IMG/VR virus record: IMGVR_UViG_3300021960_000370
Location: 1-28,714 of that record
Reading direction: 5' to 3' (one strand)
Length of the DNA: 28,714 bases
DNA from: a virus
Shown here: piece by piece, positions 3,172 through 28,714 of the stretch
Layout of the letters: each line of letters starts with the position of its first letter
How positions within the stretch are numbered: the stretch's first letter is position 1
Program-made: the position numbers and the translations under genes
Notes under the pieces: generated by a model
Databases searched by the model: none
Told to the model about the DNA's origin: nothing
The model's input: the letters and a program-made list of their open reading frames with translations, nothing else

Positions 3172-3671
3172 TGGCAACGGCACTATTCATTACCCGCGAG
3201 GACATAGTACGCAACACCGCTTTAGGCGGTAATGTGGATACGGATAAGTTCATCCAATTTATTAAGATTGCCCAACAGATCCATATTCAAAACTACTTGG
3301 GTTCTAAATTGTATGACAAGATTTCGGCAGACATCATTGCCGGAACGCTATCTGGCGATTACTTGACATTGGTAACGGACTACGTTCAACCTATGCTCAT
3401 CCATTTTGCGCTAATGGAGTATATGCCCTTTGCGGCCTATACCATCGGCAACGGAGGGGTGTATAAGCACCAAAGCGAGAACTCTGCGAGTGTAGACAAG
3501 ACGGAGGTAGATTTCTTAATTGAGAAGGAGCGTAAGATTGCCGAGTTTTATGTGCGTAGGTTCATTGACTTTATGACCTACAACCAAACGACCTATCCAG
3601 AGTACAATCAAAATACCAACGATGATATGTACCCCGACTACGATGTGCAATATAGCGGTTGGGTATTATGA
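3171..3671 (+). CDS. Head-tail adaptor-like protein
   Basis: 166 residues, mainly helical, starting MATALFITREDIVRNT, with IKIAQQIHIQNYLGSKLYD and a stretch rich in aromatic residues (HFALMEYMPFAAYTIGNGGVY). This pattern matches the gp6-like connector/DUF6712-type proteins that follow portals in Bacteroidota siphophages, as far as I remember the family. It shares one base with the portal stop and overlaps the next small ORF by four bases. The tail is acidic and Tyr-rich (NDDMYPDYDVQYSGW). It probably docks the tail on the portal ring. The exact family needs a profile search. Confidence 0.6.
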   Translation: MATALFITREDIVRNTALGGNVDTDKFIQFIKIAQQIHIQNYLGSKLYDKISADIIAGTLSGDYLTLVTDYVQPMLIHFALMEYMPFAAYTIGNGGVYKHQSENSASVDKTEVDFLIEKERKIAEFYVRRFIDFMTYNQTTYPEYNQNTNDDMYPDYDVQYSGWVL

Positions 3672-7683: not shown

Positions 7684-7718
7684 GCGAGGCCAAAAAGCCT
7701 ACGCGGAATTTTTTTTTT
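7684..7718 (+). terminator. Rho-independent terminator ending the late/lysis operon
   Basis: GCGAGGC (7684-7690) pairs with GCCTACGC (7697-7704) across a CAAAAA loop, with one bulged A, followed by GGAA and ten T (7709-7718). The stem is moderate but the U-tract is very strong. It is placed about 100 bases after the last lysis gene, where the late transcript should end. Confidence 0.6.
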
Positions 7719-15637: not shown

Positions 15638-16224
15638 AAGTAGACATCAAAAAGGTTATACCTAACCCCAGCAACCCCCGCATCATCAAGGATGATAAGT
15701 TCAAGAAATTGGTGAACTCCATTAAGGAGTTCCCCCAGATGTTAGAACTACGCCCTATTGTAGTGGATAGCAATATGGTAGTGCTTGGCGGTAATATGCG
15801 CCTAAAGGCTTGTCAAGCCGCCGGACTGCAAGAGGTGGATATTCTCATTGCCGATCAACTAACAGAGGAACAGAAGGCCGAGTTTATCATCAAGGATAAT
15901 GTAGGCTTTGGAGAATGGGATTGGGATCTTTTGGCAAATGAATGGGATGTGGAGGCGTTGACGGAATGGGGGTTGGATGTTGGTGGATTTGATTTGAATG
16001 CAGAGCAGTTTGGTGATGAGTTCTCTTTGCCAGATGGTGACAAATCACCATTCCAGCAAATGACTTTCACTTTAGCAGATGAACAAACGGAACAAATAAA
16101 AAATGCTATTGCAGACGTGAAAGCAACAGACGAATTCAAATACTGCGAAACCTTTGGTAACGAGAACTCAAATGGCAACGCCCTCTATTTAATTATTATG
16201 CAATGGGCAGAGCAAAAGAAATAG
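15634..16224 (+). CDS. ParB/Srx-like N-terminal domain protein
   Basis: 196 residues. Residues ~1-95 form a ParB/sulfiredoxin-fold domain: IPNPSNPR (9-16), ELRPIVVDSNMVVLGGNMRL with the GGNMR phosphate-binding motif (52-56), and EVDILIADQLTEEQKAEFII. ParB partition proteins use this pocket for CTP, but many phage members lack a DNA-binding HTH and are linked to DNA modification genes, as here. The C-terminal half (from ~110) is acidic and unrecognised. It overlaps the Mom-like gene by 22 bases, so the two are probably co-made. No ParA or parS is present, so partition is unlikely. Confidence 0.8.
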   Translation: MKVDIKKVIPNPSNPRIIKDDKFKKLVNSIKEFPQMLELRPIVVDSNMVVLGGNMRLKACQAAGLQEVDILIADQLTEEQKAEFIIKDNVGFGEWDWDLLANEWDVEALTEWGLDVGGFDLNAEQFGDEFSLPDGDKSPFQQMTFTLADEQTEQIKNAIADVKATDEFKYCETFGNENSNGNALYLIIMQWAEQKK

Positions 16225-16898
16225 TAGTTAAGGTCATTCCAGCCAAAATTGCTAATGAATTCGTTAAGAAGCACCACTACTCTGGTAAGGTTGTGCCAAA
16301 TAGCACTTTGCACTTTGGTGCTTTTCTTGATGGAAAGTTACACGGAGTTTTAAGTTATGGCCCAAGTATAAACAAAAAAGGGACTATAAACCTTGTAGAA
16401 GATACGGGATGGAATGAGTTTATAGAGTTAAACCGTATGGCATTTGATGACTATTTGCCAAAGTATAGCGAAAGTAGATGTATAGCTATAAGTATCCGAC
16501 TTATTAAAAAAAATGCCCCTCAAATAAAGTGGATAATTAGTTTTGCGGATGGAACTCAATGTGGTGATGGAACTATTTACAGAGCAAGTGGATTTAAATT
16601 AGTAGGTATAGCAGAAAATACTGCATTGAGAATAAATCCAGAAACTGGAGAAGCAATGCACGTCATCCAAGCGCACCATCTTAAAATGTCAAATAAATTT
16701 CGTAAGTGGCAACCATTTGATGGTTACCAATTAAAATATGTATATCTCATAGATAAATCTTGTATACTTACCAAGTCCGAAATATCATTTGATAAAATAG
16801 ACGAAATAGGTGCTGGGATGTACAAGGGGCAAAAAATAACCCTCCAAGAGAGGAGGGCTAATTTGAGCGAGGAGGTCGATTCGAACGCCACTTCTTGA
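16203..16898 (+). CDS. Mom-like DNA modification protein (GNAT fold)
   Basis: 231 residues. Resembles the phage Mu Mom family: an N-terminal IANEFVKKHHYSGKVVPNS with HHYS at 24-27, a beta core (HFGAFLDGKLHGVLSYGPS), ELNRMAFDDYLP (75-86), RCIAISIRLIKK, and WIISFADGTQCGDGTIYRAS (110-129), which corresponds to the acetyltransferase-like core. Mu Mom changes adenine to an acetamido-adenine that blocks restriction enzymes; a related base modification is inferred here. The gene is visibly more AT-rich than its neighbours. Its last ~10 residues (ending EEVDSNATS) come from the antisense strand of a tRNA-like gene, so the true functional end is about residue 220. Confidence 0.72.
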   Translation: MGRAKEIVVKVIPAKIANEFVKKHHYSGKVVPNSTLHFGAFLDGKLHGVLSYGPSINKKGTINLVEDTGWNEFIELNRMAFDDYLPKYSESRCIAISIRLIKKNAPQIKWIISFADGTQCGDGTIYRASGFKLVGIAENTALRINPETGEAMHVIQAHHLKMSNKFRKWQPFDGYQLKYVYLIDKSCILTKSEISFDKIDEIGAGMYKGQKITLQERRANLSEEVDSNATS

Positions 16899-16956: not shown

Positions 16957-17295
16957 ATGGACAAAACTGAACAACATAAAAAGGCAATGCTTGATGCTCT
17001 GGAAAAATCTTTGGGCGTTGTAACTGCCGCTTGTAAGGCGGTAGGCATTGGTCGCACTACGCACTACCTATGGATGCAAGAGGATGCGGAATACAAAAAG
17101 GCCGTAGAGGACTTAAACGATGTCGCTATTGACTTTGCAGAAAGCCAACTGCATAAGCAAATCAAAGACGGCAATTCCACCGCTACCATCTTTTACCTAA
17201 AGACAAAGGGTAAGAAGCGAGGTTATGTAGAACGCCAAGAGATAGAAGCTACCGGAGGTAAGATGTTCCAAATAGAGATTCTTGGCGAAGATTGA
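16957..17295 (+). CDS. terS: Terminase small subunit
   Basis: 112 residues. N-terminal helix-turn-helix (AMLDALEKSLGVVTAACKAV then GIGRTTHYLWMQEDAEYKKA, ~9-48), followed by helices for oligomerisation (DFAESQLHKQI) and a C-terminal piece with FYLKTKGKKRGYVERQEIE, the usual ending of small terminases in many siphophages. It recognises the packaging start on phage DNA and passes it to the large subunit. It directly precedes and overlaps the large subunit gene by 14 bases, which supports the call. ATG follows the divergent tRNA promoter. Confidence 0.85.
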   Translation: MDKTEQHKKAMLDALEKSLGVVTAACKAVGIGRTTHYLWMQEDAEYKKAVEDLNDVAIDFAESQLHKQIKDGNSTATIFYLKTKGKKRGYVERQEIEATGGKMFQIEILGED

Positions 17296-18436
17296 AACCA
17301 ATAAGGTATTTGGACACCTCCTGCGCTCGGATAAGAAAATCATCGTAGAGCAAGGTGGTACTCGTAGTGGTAAGACCTACAATATCTTGCTATGGATCAT
17401 TTTTAAGTATACCGAGCAAGAAACGAACAAAACAATAACCATCTGCCGTAAGTCCTTCCCTTCCCTCCGAGCATCGGTAATGAGGGACTTCTTTGATATA
17501 CTACGAACCCACGACCTCTACATAGAGGAACACCATAACAAGTCCAACCACGAATACTACATAAACGGTAATCTGGTAGAGTTCATCTCCCTTGATCAGC
17601 CGCAGAAAATAAGGGGAAGAAAACGAGACCTTCTGTATATTAACGAGGCTAACGAGCTTTTTTACGAGGATTGGCAACAACTTATCTTCCGTACAGAGGG
17701 GCGCATCATCCTTGACTACAACCCATCCGATACCTTCCATTGGATTTATGATAGGGTAATTCCGCGCGATGACTGCGCCTTTTTCCAGACCACTTACAAG
17801 GATAATAAGTTCCTTGATAAAAGCATTGTAGAGGAGATTGAGAGGCTACAGGGAACGGATGAAGATTACTGGCGTATCTATGGCTTGGGTGAGCGCGGTA
17901 TGTCCCGCGCCACCATCTTCCAGTTCCAAGTAGCGGATGCCCCAAAGGGCAACCTCGTATCTATGGGGCTTGACTTTGGCTTTACTAATGATCCTACCTC
18001 TTTGGTTAAGGTGTTCAAGGATGGTGATGATTTATACATCCAAGAGCTACTCTATCACACCAACCTCACCAACCAAGACATTAGCGACAAGTTCCACCAA
18101 CTTGGCCTGACTCGCTATGACGAGATCTGGGCAGATAGCGCAGAACCCAAGAGCATTGAGGAGTTGCACCGGATGGGGTGGAACATCAAGCCCACCGCCA
18201 AGGGGGCGGATTCTGTGATGGCTGGGATAGACATCCTCAAACGACACCGTATACACGTTGTGAAAGACTCACATAACGCCATCAAGGAATTCCAAAATTA
18301 CAAGTGGCAAGAGGATAAGAACGGCAACCTACTCAACCGCCCTATTGATGCCTTCAACCACGCTATTGATGCTACCAGATACGCTACCTTTAATCGGTTG
18401 AGCAGACCGAACTACGGGCGGTATGCGATACGCTAA
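17282..18436 (+). CDS. terL: Terminase large subunit
   Basis: 384 residues, the packaging motor and headful/cos nuclease. ATPase: Walker A GGTRSGKT (25-32), Walker B DLLYINEA (116-123) with catalytic Glu122, and a coupling-type LDYNPSD (144-150). Nuclease (RNase H fold): MGLDFGFTNDPTS with Asp231, EIWADSAEPKSI with Asp285, and HAIDATRYA with Asp363. All catalytic acids are present. The start appears to be TTG 17282 (MAKIETNKVF), since no ATG occurs before the Walker A motif. It overlaps the small subunit stop by 14 bases. At 384 residues it is on the short side for a TerL. Confidence 0.93.
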   Translation: MAKIETNKVFGHLLRSDKKIIVEQGGTRSGKTYNILLWIIFKYTEQETNKTITICRKSFPSLRASVMRDFFDILRTHDLYIEEHHNKSNHEYYINGNLVEFISLDQPQKIRGRKRDLLYINEANELFYEDWQQLIFRTEGRIILDYNPSDTFHWIYDRVIPRDDCAFFQTTYKDNKFLDKSIVEEIERLQGTDEDYWRIYGLGERGMSRATIFQFQVADAPKGNLVSMGLDFGFTNDPTSLVKVFKDGDDLYIQELLYHTNLTNQDISDKFHQLGLTRYDEIWADSAEPKSIEELHRMGWNIKPTAKGADSVMAGIDILKRHRIHVVKDSHNAIKEFQNYKWQEDKNGNLLNRPIDAFNHAIDATRYATFNRLSRPNYGRYAIR

Positions 18437-18460: not shown

Positions 18461-19120
18461 ATGAATGTCATAGTACCTAATCGGCTTGATGAGTTGACAC
18501 TTGGTCAATACCAACGCTTCCAGAAACTGGAGGGCGATGATGAGTTTCTATCTCGTAAGATGGTGGAGATTTTCTGCGGCCTCAAGCTTGACTTAATCAC
18601 CAAGATGAAGGTAGCCTCCATCAACAAGATAAACGAGACACTCCTAAAGGCATTCAACGAAAGACCTAAATTCCAAAACACCTTTAAGATGGATGGGGTG
18701 GAGTACGGGTTCATCTCAAGCCTTGAGGAAATCACCTTTGGGGAGTTGCACGATATTGAAACCACCATTACCGACTGGCAACGGATGAACGAGACGATGG
18801 CGGTTTTATACCGCCCTATCGTACAGAAGATGGGCAAGAGATACCGCATCAAGGATTATGAGGCAGACTCCCTACAAGCGGAGTTAATGCGTAAGATGCC
18901 CTTGAGCGTGGTAATGGGGGCAATGGTTTTTTTTTGCGATTTAGGGATGGATTTATCCAGAACTTCCCTGATGTCTTTGGTGGAGGAGAGCAAGACCAAT
19001 TCAGTAGTGAATCCCAGTTCTCCAGAAGGTGGGGTTGGTTTCCCTTATTCTATGCTCTTGCTCAAGGGGATGCTACCCGATTTGATGACGTATCCAAACT
19101 TAACGCGGCCTTCGCATTGA
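18461..19120 (+). CDS. Tail assembly chaperone, zero-frame product (G-like)
   Basis: 219 residues in the zero frame. The first ~158 look like a real globular helical domain (MNVIVPNRLDELTLGQYQRF; TFGELHDIETTITDWQRMNE; LQAELMRKMPLSVVMGAM). After a run of nine T (18927-18935) the zero frame continues for 61 residues of lower-quality sequence rich in Ser/Pro, whereas the -1 frame carries a family-like domain. Tail chaperones coat the tape measure protein during tail assembly and commonly exist in short and frameshifted long forms. Position just upstream of tail genes fits. Confidence 0.65.
   Translation: MNVIVPNRLDELTLGQYQRFQKLEGDDEFLSRKMVEIFCGLKLDLITKMKVASINKINETLLKAFNERPKFQNTFKMDGVEYGFISSLEEITFGELHDIETTITDWQRMNETMAVLYRPIVQKMGKRYRIKDYEADSLQAELMRKMPLSVVMGAMVFFCDLGMDLSRTSLMSLVEESKTNSVVNPSSPEGGVGFPYSMLLLKGMLPDLMTYPNLTRPSH
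18928..18969 (+). promoter_or_regulatory. -1 ribosomal frameshift site (slippery U-tract plus hairpin)
   Basis: T-TTT-TTT at 18928-18934 lies in the correct zero frame for a -1 slip (codons 18929-31 and 18932-34), with one more T after it. Eight bases downstream AGGGA (18943-18947) can pair with TCCCT (18965-18969), with a nested GGA/TCC, a spacing typical of -1 frameshift stimulators. A homopolymer assembly error would look the same. Confidence 0.6.
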
Positions 19121-19191
19121 CCTATTTAACCTTTGAGCGCGACAAGCTTGAAACCGAAAAAAAGATCCTACAAAAGAATATAAAGCGATGA
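18934..19191 (+). CDS. Tail assembly chaperone, -1 frame extension (GT-like C-terminal domain)
   Basis: 85 residues joined by a -1 slip to residue 158 of the preceding frame, giving a 243-residue long form. It has no good start of its own (TTG within the T-run). The sequence (RFRDGFIQNFPDVFGGG, then WGWFPLFYALAQGDATRFDD, then KLNAAFALTYLTFERDKLET) contains a W-G-W-F...A-x-G-D...L-x-Y-L-x-F pattern I recognise in Bacteroidota phage tail chaperone C termini. Its stop overlaps the next ATG (19188) by four bases, in keeping with the operon, whereas the zero-frame stop at 19120 does not fit that pattern. The long form is therefore certainly meaningful. Confidence 0.75.
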   Translation: MRFRDGFIQNFPDVFGGGEQDQFSSESQFSRRWGWFPLFYALAQGDATRFDDVSKLNAAFALTYLTFERDKLETEKKILQKNIKR

Positions 19192-19655
19192 GAAATTTTT
19201 ATCTGGTATTGGAGAAGATAAAGCAAGTGCTTGAGGCTCACTCCCAAGTTAACGTAGTTACCTACGGGGACATCTTTGATGTTGACCTAAACAAGCAAAC
19301 CATCTTCCCCCTCTCGCATATTATGATTAACTCCGCGACCATCGCGGGGCAAGTTATCCGCTTCAATATCTCCATCTTGGCTATGGATGTAGTGGATGAA
19401 ACCAAAGAGAATTTACGCGACCAACAAGAGCCATTCTACGGAACGAACAATGCCCAAGACATCCTCAATACCCAACTGGCGGTATGCAATGCCGTCATCA
19501 AAGAATTGGAGCGCGGTGATTTGCACTTTGACCTCTACCAGTTAGAAGGCACTCCCCAATGCCTCCCCTTCCAAGACCGCTTTGAGAATCTCTTGGCGGG
19601 TTGGAACTGCACCTTTGACGTTCTTACCGCCAACAACGAGATAGCCGTATGCTAA
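19188..19655 (+). CDS. Tail completion / terminator-like protein
   Basis: 155 residues. MRNFYLVLEKIKQVLEAHSQ opens with a helix; then VVTYGDIFDVDLNKQTIFPL, RFNISILAMDVVDETKENLR (a strand typical of tail terminator folds), a helix (AQDILNTQLAVCNAVIKELE) and LLAGWNCTFDVLTANNEIAVC at the end. The alpha/beta order (helix, sheet, helix, strand) fits phage tail completion proteins that cap the tail tube. I recognise similar proteins in Bacteroidota siphophages. It lies between the chaperone and an HK97 gp10-like protein. Confidence 0.6.
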   Translation: MRNFYLVLEKIKQVLEAHSQVNVVTYGDIFDVDLNKQTIFPLSHIMINSATIAGQVIRFNISILAMDVVDETKENLRDQQEPFYGTNNAQDILNTQLAVCNAVIKELERGDLHFDLYQLEGTPQCLPFQDRFENLLAGWNCTFDVLTANNEIAVC

Positions 19656-23510: not shown

Positions 23511-23665
23511 CAAAGGGCTTTATTAGTTATTTAGTTGAGGTTCTCCAAGCCGATAATCATATCGGCATTTCGGAGAATGTAGAGATAGCAAAAGGAAAAT
23601 ATCACCTTCCCACCTCTTGGGAGGAAGGTATAAAAATAATGCGTAGGCAATGGCTGAACCGATAG
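23507..23665 (+). CDS. Small protein between tail tip and tape measure (52 aa)
   Basis: MTKGFISYLVEVLQADNHIG then ISENVEIAKGKYHLPTSWEE and GIKIMRRQWLNR. ATG overlaps the preceding stop by four bases, and its end overlaps the tape measure start by 16. Contains the nucleotide word AGTTATTTAGTTGAG (23525-23539) seen elsewhere as a start leader. No family recognised; it may be an accessory of tail assembly. Confidence 0.5.
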   Translation: MTKGFISYLVEVLQADNHIGISENVEIAKGKYHLPTSWEEGIKIMRRQWLNR

Positions 23666-25401
23666 AAGTAAAAATTAACGTATCCTCAAATATTGAGGAT
23701 GCCTCTTCAAATATCACCGGAGGGTTAGACAACGTTAAGAACGCCACCAAAGAAGCAAGTTCCAACATAGTGAATATGGAGGAAAATGCTGATAGTGCTA
23801 TTACTCTTATTGATGAAGGCTTTGGTGGTATAGGTACTAAAATTAAAAATGTCTACAAGGGCGTTACGGGTTTAGGGAAAAGTTTTATTGCATCTTTTAA
23901 GGCTGGGGTTGCTGGGGCAAACTCTATGCAGAAAGCCCTCGTTGCTACGGGTATCGGGGCTTTGGTTGTTGCTCTTGGTCTTATCGTAGCCTATTGGGAG
24001 GATATTGTAGGCTTGGTTAATGGTGTTAGTTCTGCACAGAAGGAACAGTTAGCCGCGGCAGAGGCAACCGTCCAAGCCCAAACAGAGGCATCGGAGGCTT
24101 TAGACCTTCAAGAGAATACATTGCGCTTACAAGGAAAGAGCGAGAAGGAGATTAGGGATTTAAAAATCCAACAAACCAACGAAACTATTGCGGCTCTTGA
24201 GGCTCAACTTGAAACTCAAAAGCAGATAAAGAAAAGCCAAGTAGATGCCGCGAATCGCAACAAGGCGATTCTTCAAGGCATCATTCGCTTTTTGACTTTA
24301 CCAATTAGTACCCTACTTGCGACCATTGATATGGTGGGTAAGGCTCTTGGTAAGGATTTTGGCCTTGAGGAGGGCTTTACTGGCGGTCTTGCTAAAATGG
24401 TCTTTGATCCAGACGAGGTAGCCACCGAAGCGGATGCCGCCATTAAAGAGACGGAAAAATCATTGGCTCAATTAAAGAGCAAACGAGACGGCTATTTGGT
24501 AGCCGCACAGAACGAGGAAAAGGCCGCTAATAAGGCAACACAAGCCCAACGAGATAAAGATGCGGAAGAGCGTTTAAAGAAGCAACAAGAACTCCATAAT
24601 AAACTTCTTGAGGCAGAAGCCAATTACCAAGCGCAGTTACTGGAGGATAGAAGTAAGCTTGATGAGTTGGTATTTAACCAACAAATCTCTGCTCAAGAGC
24701 AAGAGATCAATGCGGTGTATGATAAGTTCTTTAGGCTTGAGGAGGCATACGCTAACGATGCCGAAACGCTCAAGATGATTACCGAGCAACGGGAAAAGGA
24801 GATTGGGGAGATTAAGGACAAGTACCAGAAAGAAGCGGATGCAAAACAAAAAGAAGAACTTGATAAGCAACGCGCCTTCCGTCAGCAGATACAAGACCTT
24901 GCTGTAGAGTCCACTTTAAGCACCTTCAGCGCACTTAAAGAGTTGAATGGTATATTTGATAAGGACAACGAAGAAGCCGCCCGTAGAGCCTTTAATCGTG
25001 AAAAGGCGTTAAGCCTTGCCGAGACGATTGTAAGCACCTATGTGTCTGCTCAAAAGGCATACGCCTCGCAGTTGGTAGTAGGTGATCCAACCTCCGTAGC
25101 GAGGGCAACCCTCGCGGCCTCTGTTGCAGTTGCCGGAGGCTTGGCAAGAGCCGCGACAATCGCCTCTCAAAAGTTCAGCCCAACGGGAGATTCTACTTCC
25201 ATTCCCTCCGCTACCTCTGCGCCAAGCATTCCAAGTGTCACTCCGCAGTTTAATATTGTAGGGCAGAGTGGCACGAACCAATTGGCTCAATCCATCGGCT
25301 CTCAATTTGACCGCCCAGTAAGAGCCTATGTAGTAGGAGGCGATGTAACCACCTCCCAAGAACTTGAACGCAAACGAATCAAAACCGCAACCATCGGATG
25401 A
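23650..25401 (+). CDS. Tail tape measure protein
   Basis: 583 residues. MAEPIEVKINVSSNIEDASS opens with an Asn/Ser-rich helix. A Gly-rich segment is followed by a strong hydrophobic span (~96-118, KALVATGIGALVVALGLIVA), a hallmark of tape measures that form a channel in the host membrane. Long Ala/Glu/Gln/Lys coiled coils follow (~128-205 and ~285-420), then a Ser/Pro-rich C-terminal region. It acts as a ruler for tail length and may help DNA entry. At about 1.5 angstroms per residue it predicts a short tail near 90 nm. No muramidase domain seen. Four-base overlap with the protease gene. Confidence 0.85.
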   Translation: MAEPIEVKINVSSNIEDASSNITGGLDNVKNATKEASSNIVNMEENADSAITLIDEGFGGIGTKIKNVYKGVTGLGKSFIASFKAGVAGANSMQKALVATGIGALVVALGLIVAYWEDIVGLVNGVSSAQKEQLAAAEATVQAQTEASEALDLQENTLRLQGKSEKEIRDLKIQQTNETIAALEAQLETQKQIKKSQVDAANRNKAILQGIIRFLTLPISTLLATIDMVGKALGKDFGLEEGFTGGLAKMVFDPDEVATEADAAIKETEKSLAQLKSKRDGYLVAAQNEEKAANKATQAQRDKDAEERLKKQQELHNKLLEAEANYQAQLLEDRSKLDELVFNQQISAQEQEINAVYDKFFRLEEAYANDAETLKMITEQREKEIGEIKDKYQKEADAKQKEELDKQRAFRQQIQDLAVESTLSTFSALKELNGIFDKDNEEAARRAFNREKALSLAETIVSTYVSAQKAYASQLVVGDPTSVARATLAASVAVAGGLARAATIASQKFSPTGDSTSIPSATSAPSIPSVTPQFNIVGQSGTNQLAQSIGSQFDRPVRAYVVGGDVTTSQELERKRIKTATIG

Positions 25402-28069: not shown

Positions 28070-28714
28070 ATGGCTACGACCACTTCTATCACGACTTCAT
28101 ACGCTGGAAGCTTTGCCTCCAAGTATGTATCTGCCGCCTTGTTGAGCGCAGACACGTTGGACAAAGGTCTCGTTGAGATCCTTCCTAACGTAAACTTCAA
28201 GTCAACCTTGCAGAAGGTTGCTACTGATGACATCGTTAAAGATGCCACTTGTGACTTCACTCCTACCTCTACGCTGACTTTGACTGACCGCGTATTGGAG
28301 GTTGAGCCTTTCCAAGTTAACCTTCAGCTTTGTAAGAAGGACTATTACGATTCTTGGATTGGTTCTCAAATGGGCTACTCTGCCTACGACAACATCCCCG
28401 CTTCTTTCAGCGACTTCTTGATCGGTCACGTTGCCGCCAAGACCGCCCAAAAGATTGAGCAGAACATCTGGCAAGGCGTTAACGCTACTGCTGGTGAGTT
28501 TGATGGCTTCGTTACTTTGATGACTGCCGATGGCGATGTCAATGATGTTACGGGTACAACCGTTACTGCCGCGAATGTTATCGCAGAATTGGGTAAGGTT
28601 GCTGATGCTATCCCTAACGCCATCTACGGCAAGGAGGATTTGACCATCTATGTTCCTCAGAATGTGGCTCGCGCTTATGTTCGTGCTTTGGGTGGATTCG
28701 GTACTTCTGGCTTG
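28070..28714 (+). CDS. Major capsid protein, N-terminal part (3' truncated)
   Basis: 215 residues from ATG 28070 to the window edge, no stop. It starts MATTTSITTSYAGSFASKYV, with TLQKVATDDIVKDATCDFTP, a helical segment (ASFSDFLIGHVAAKTAQKIE) and, near the end, VPQNVARAYVRALGGFGTSG. The last 25 residues recur, with three substitutions, at the beginning of the window, where the gene continues to its stop at 359. A leader of 18 A/T bases precedes the ATG. Placed after scaffold and protease genes; capsid identity is by context and recollection of similar proteins. Confidence 0.75.
   Translation, partial: MATTTSITTSYAGSFASKYVSAALLSADTLDKGLVEILPNVNFKSTLQKVATDDIVKDATCDFTPTSTLTLTDRVLEVEPFQVNLQLCKKDYYDSWIGSQMGYSAYDNIPASFSDFLIGHVAAKTAQKIEQNIWQGVNATAGEFDGFVTLMTADGDVNDVTGTTVTAANVIAELGKVADAIPNAIYGKEDLTIYVPQNVARAYVRALGGFGTSGL

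Follow-up and report, generated by a model that had tools for sequence, protein, structure and literature searches.

A conserved nine-T run as a probable -1 recoding site in a putative phage tail assembly chaperone gene

In phage lambda, the overlapping genes G and T lie upstream of H, and the slip site between the two frames is of the G/A type. A stimulator 3′ of the slip site is not obligatory for ribosomal -1 frameshifts as a class. Alternative C-terminal ends can also be produced by the RNA polymerase, as in the transcriptional slippage systems of Thermus thermophilus dnaX (A9), Shigella mxiE and bacterial IS elements (PMC1088944, PMC5009743). Such slippage is used at A/T runs of nine (PMC1088944, PMC5009743), and many bacterial genomes begin to avoid A/T runs at this same length (PMC1088944). 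In E. coli, in turn, ribosomes shift only weakly at the heptamer U_UUU_UUU (PMC5009743).

Here we describe a gene in which two reading frames meet at a run of nine T. It lies in an IMG/VR virus record of 28,714 bases, the whole of which was analysed and is referred to as the window. We propose that one phage gene would give two proteins by way of a conserved programmed -1 recoding site, with the frame change occurring on the T9 run itself. The shorter, G-like protein would consist of 158 common residues and a zero-frame tail; less often, a longer G-T protein with an 85-residue all-helical -1 domain would be made.

Geometry of the frame junction

The zero-frame gene extends on the + strand from the ATG at 18461 to the TGA at 19120 (18461-19120) and encodes a G-like product of 219 residues. 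The 158-residue N-terminal part common to both products is ended by the codons GTT TTT TTT TGC, which start at 18926 and contain the T9 run (18927-18935, + strand). A sequence-only reading of this DNA had placed the meeting of the zero and -1 frames at T-TTT-TTT in the phase of a -1 slip, and the codon register confirms it: the heptamer T_TTT_TTT occupies 18928-18934 (+ strand), and its zero-frame phase, suited to a -1 slip, is kept in relatives. Read on in the -1 frame, the run leads into a T-like extension of 85 residues plus stop (18934-19191, + strand), a conserved domain with a WGW motif. Read on in the zero frame, it leads into a tail of 61 residues after the second Phe (18935-19120, + strand), the same length as given earlier, over a stretch that is read in both frames. 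The -1-frame stop, TGA at 19189-19191, shares the four bases ATGA with the next gene, which begins at 19188 (19188-19655, + strand; PHROG_30964, unknown function), an overlap that had also been described correctly.

Reads with either eight or ten T had been expected to reveal one uninterrupted gene. This holds for ten T, which joins the two frames as only a run of ten or of seven can. Eight T leads instead into the +1 frame, which is shut just past the run by a TAG at 18942-18944 (+ strand). In nearly all relatives the +1 frame closes 3-6 codons past the run (TTTAR). In two loci, L380 and L381, a +1-frame TGA follows the run immediately, and in a relative of these, L382, the +1 frame is closed at 9 codons. 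It is noted that a +1-frame stop would terminate the product of transcripts one U short. As a selected feature this stop is suggestive, but it comes later in L382 and can be explained by the Phe-Arg/Lys codons of the -1 frame, and we rejected it as such. The sole other T run of at least nine on the + strand of the window is an intergenic T10 at 7709-7718, perhaps part of a terminator.

A candidate hairpin downstream of the run had been noted as well. It can form, at 18938-18975 (+ strand), but the z values of -0.8 to -1.1 in the shorter sequence windows that hold it are ordinary. No covariation was found in it, and no conserved structure was found 3′ of the run in 144 relatives, where the mean z for stem-loops was -0.16 vs -0.19 in control windows. 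For these reasons the hairpin was rejected as a frameshift stimulator, and it probably has no role.

Conservation of the run and of both coding frames

Junctions were pooled from IMG/VR scans (queried with both protein parts, alignments and a DNA pattern), from phage records and from whole genomes. This gave 300 distinct junctions, which are to be read as related sequences and not as independent events, most of the contigs being metagenomic and searches with patterns over the FF codons favouring members that have T there. The run is T9 in 287 of them and T10 in the other 13, with none shorter or longer, so the same junction, when sought in homologues, had nine or ten T in 300 of 300, in phase for -1. 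Almost all of these junctions also leave the -1 frame uninterrupted. The DNA pattern scan, which is independent of protein similarity, yielded 114 family contigs, with T9 in 112 and T10 in 2. In the same scan, L226, L247, L266, L272, L288 and L289 showed a different conserved motif, CCTCTCTTTTTTTGTCTTTAAGTAACGA, with a frame open for about 30 codons only.

Chance does not account for this recurrence: other T runs of at least nine are scarce, with just 12 in approximately 850 kb from the first 144 loci of relatives. On a 106-tip tree with a length of 26.6 substitutions per site, the 9 bases of the run show zero changes, compared to 14 and 12 changes for the flanking bases. In the rest of the common part no unchanged stretch exceeds 3 bases, and a third codon position has undergone 28 changes on average. 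Among the relatives are two isolated phages of Nonlabens, P12024S and P12024L (about 26% identity), and a prophage-like copy (G219), again with the T run, on a bacterial genome contig of 3.9 Mb. The setting of the relatives is Bacteroidetes MAGs and phages of a flavobacterium, and the window virus itself probably infects Bacteroidetes. Against phage records, no match was obtained with blastn, and nothing was found by tblastn with the -1 domain alone; a phylum-wide genome search returned the centre genome as its sole match.

Selection acts on both parts of the joined product. Before the run, in pairs that are 85-92% identical, differences amount to 0.377 at zero-frame position 3, compared with 0.094 at position 1 and 0.064 at position 2. 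After the run, they amount to 0.195 at position 3 of the -1 frame vs 0.123 and 0.053, a pattern resembling that of the stretch read in the -1 frame only. This switch in the phase of substitutions indicates that the constrained frame after the run is the -1 frame and that the zero-frame tail is weakly constrained. The tail varies in length from about 16 to 88 residues in relatives. Of 291 relatives, 162 lack a Met in the -1 domain after the run, and only 6 have one before the WGW motif. The scarcity of Met implies that the domain must generally be reached from the upstream frame, and a separate translation start was discarded for most relatives, which have no usable one.

If the junction were a sequencing or assembly error in the homopolymer, or the mark of a decayed gene, the true gene would be single-frame. 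Homopolymers are error-prone, and one locus, L021 (junction near 3462), is one T short compared with its close relative L023 and has an incoherent frame from which a -1 slip cannot reach the -1 domain. Some database proteins also seem to hold both domains in one chain: the common part and the -1 domain, searched separately, each found the BFVD entries A0A516L611, A0A516L5A8, A0A6J5SVK3, A0A6J5N0W0, A0A6J7WDG4, A0A6J5MY57 and A0A6J7XA66. These entries may be natural in-frame joins or, in some cases, homopolymer miscalls. However, the 300 distinct junctions come from many assemblies, among them that of an isolated phage and the 3.9 Mb contig, and all have nine or ten T in phase, while decay is at odds with selection on both parts. 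A T run kept almost unchanged in about 300 relatives argues for a real, selected frame switch and not for a sequencing error. The junctions and the substitution pattern together rule out both sequencing error and a pseudogene, and we consider the chance of either negligible. The anomaly of L021 is itself probably an assembly error or a broken copy, and that of L033, in which the -1 frame is interrupted 14 codons on, is probably an error too.

T runs of this length are generally mutable through replication slippage (PMC1088944), and the run could be imagined as a phase-variation switch, in which changes of length toggle the long form in the population. Off-phase lengths would then be expected, yet the 300 junctions are frozen at nine, with a few of ten and nothing else, and this explanation is very improbable. 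In contrast, the sequence comparisons above strongly support a programmed -1 change of frame at the T run.

Gene product and genomic setting

The common part and the extension were modelled apart with AlphaFold2. Residues 1-158 were predicted with a mean pLDDT of 92.9, and the extension was predicted as an all-helical domain with a pLDDT of 80.9. The common part corresponds to PHROG_32199 in all members scanned, and 2 of 11 joined sequences matched PHROG_38404; both families are of unknown function. Searches of Pfam, NCBIfam and PDB found no relative, and PHROG assigned no function. The -1 frame had been credited with a recognisable family domain, but neither Pfam nor PHROG recognised it as one, and it is better described as a conserved domain of unknown function. 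A structural search returned many uncharacterised phage proteins, and the first match with a named function was BFVD ctCpR1, 'Tail assembly chaperone protein' (probability 0.99, E 0.011, TM 0.48).

Directly upstream of the frameshift gene is the gene for the terminase large subunit (17282-18436, + strand; Pfam Terminase_3, 5.5e-26). The tape measure protein is encoded downstream in the same module (23650-25401, + strand; PHROG_24676, 2.4e-18). The conserved gene order is terminase, frameshift gene, four genes, tape measure, protease, capsid and portal. The frameshift gene is on the same strand as the tape measure gene and upstream of it, in an order kept in relatives, as fits a shared transcription unit, but it is not adjacent to it, with four genes between. 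Farther upstream, at 16203-16898, lies a gene for a DNA modification protein of the Mom family (Pfam PF25680, 5e-48), with a ParB-like gene on one side and the terminase genes on the other. It should also be mentioned that the two ends of the record (1-359 and 28070-28714) are both inside an apparent single major capsid gene, with overlapping capsid sequence in which 37 of 42 bases are alike. The probable cause is either a cut at this point in a circular or permuted genome or a mixture of strains.

From gene position, architecture and the one structural match, we infer that the products serve as tail assembly chaperones, a role that is quite likely provided that the recoding is real. Conserved -1 recoding and the tail-chaperone role taken jointly, with the slip level set aside, are probable, if slightly less so. 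The gene had been named a tail chaperone from the start; the name now has gene order and a structural match to recommend it, and no function from Pfam, NCBIfam or PHROG. By analogy with lambda, G would coat the tape measure protein, and tail-tube subunits would be recruited by the T extension.

The recoding could also be real while the pair is something other than a tail chaperone, for instance another morphogenesis pair acting in head, neck or packaging. The gene directly follows the large terminase gene and stands four genes before the tape measure gene, and it is without a named relative in Pfam, NCBIfam and PHROGs, as would suit such a pair. However, its size and architecture suit G/GT, its structural match is to a named tail assembly chaperone, and the relatives share the same tail module order. 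Considering these points, a different morphogenetic role seems unlikely, and we retain the tail-chaperone assignment in what follows.

Level of the slip and comparison with known systems

The earlier description of the site as a programmed -1 frameshift stands as far as the frame change is concerned. Its ribosomal level is less secure, as slippage by the polymerase is at least as likely. In the polymerase version, some transcripts would gain one U (U10), which would join the frames, and the ordinary U9 transcript would give G. The run has the property used to recognise transcriptional slippage sites, being an uninterrupted A/T run of at least nine bases and of conserved length.

The same two-protein chaperone could be produced by a purely ribosomal slip, with tandem tRNA-Phe slippage on U_UUU_UUU, and this is a serious possibility. 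Relatives keep the heptamer in the phase required, and lambda G/GT, the well-studied chaperone frameshift, is ribosomal. Low efficiency would be enough, with about 30 G made per GT in lambda (PMC5009743). On the other hand, the heptamer uses only seven T, and in the common register a run of up to eight T keeps it; seven T would thus suffice, yet 7- and 8-T forms are absent among the 300 distinct junctions. The run also stays at nine through changes of register. On a 289-tip tree, the base after the heptamer never changes and the base before it changes twice, and both losses of the upstream extra T coincide with a gain of T downstream. In the first shift, GGT TTT TTT TTG in L380 and L381 is set against GTT TTT TTT TGG in their relative L382. 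In the second, TAT TTT TTT TTG in L059 and L056 is set against TAT GTT TTT TTT TGG in L033. These compensated shifts are two events only (sign test p 0.5), and the two extra T could still reflect amino-acid constraint, although the chance that both flanking T are unchanged by that constraint alone is about 3% (0.258 x 0.123). The downstream hairpin that might have assisted a ribosome is not conserved, and the U_UUU_UUU site is weak in E. coli.

The retention of nine T where seven suffice and the lack of a conserved stimulatory hairpin, together with the slippage and avoidance known for nine-base A/T runs and the weakness of U_UUU_UUU in E. coli, lead us to lean toward RNA polymerase slippage over a purely ribosomal slip. 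We would give polymerase slippage about an even chance, and the involvement of both levels a small one. A wider proposal is put forward tentatively, at a little short of even: across a large group of relatives of Bacteroidetes phages, most of them uncultured, polymerase slippage on the invariant T9, and not the ribosome, may set the ratio of the two chaperone forms.

No description of a T9 chaperone site was found among open-licence papers. The new elements are the T9 site, the strictness with which its length is kept, and its wide occurrence in a group of phages whose gene pair is annotated as hypothetical; the site is unannotated in the databases searched. The results suggest a likely function and correct gene boundaries for the widespread 'hypothetical' pair PHROG_32199/PHROG_38404 in phages related to those of Bacteroidetes. 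A pure U-run frozen at nine, with no conserved hairpin, also offers a clean natural case in which ribosomal and transcriptional slippage can be told apart in one gene, and the isolated phage P12024S offers a test system for the level of the slip. If the slip is transcriptional, it would mean that either of two different machines can bring phages to the same chaperone ratio.

The locus resembles lambda gpG/gpGT, and the -1 frameshifts in chaperone genes of long-tailed phages, in having one gene, a common N-terminal part, a -1 extension and a place in the tail module. It differs from lambda in that the slip site is a T9 homopolymer and in that the gene is beside the terminase gene and away from the tape measure gene, and no sequence relation was found. 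With dnaX, mxiE and the IS elements it shares an A/T run of at least nine between overlapping frames and, as predicted here, products with alternative C-terminal ends; it differs from them in being a phage case, of which PMC1088944 mentions no example. The gp38/gp39 pair of Nonlabens phage P12024S (PHROG_32199, PHROG_38404) is about 26% identical, has a zero-frame tail of about 25 residues and is annotated as two separate hypothetical proteins. Its two genes are nevertheless homologues of the pair described here; they meet at the same T9 junction and likewise follow the terminase gene.
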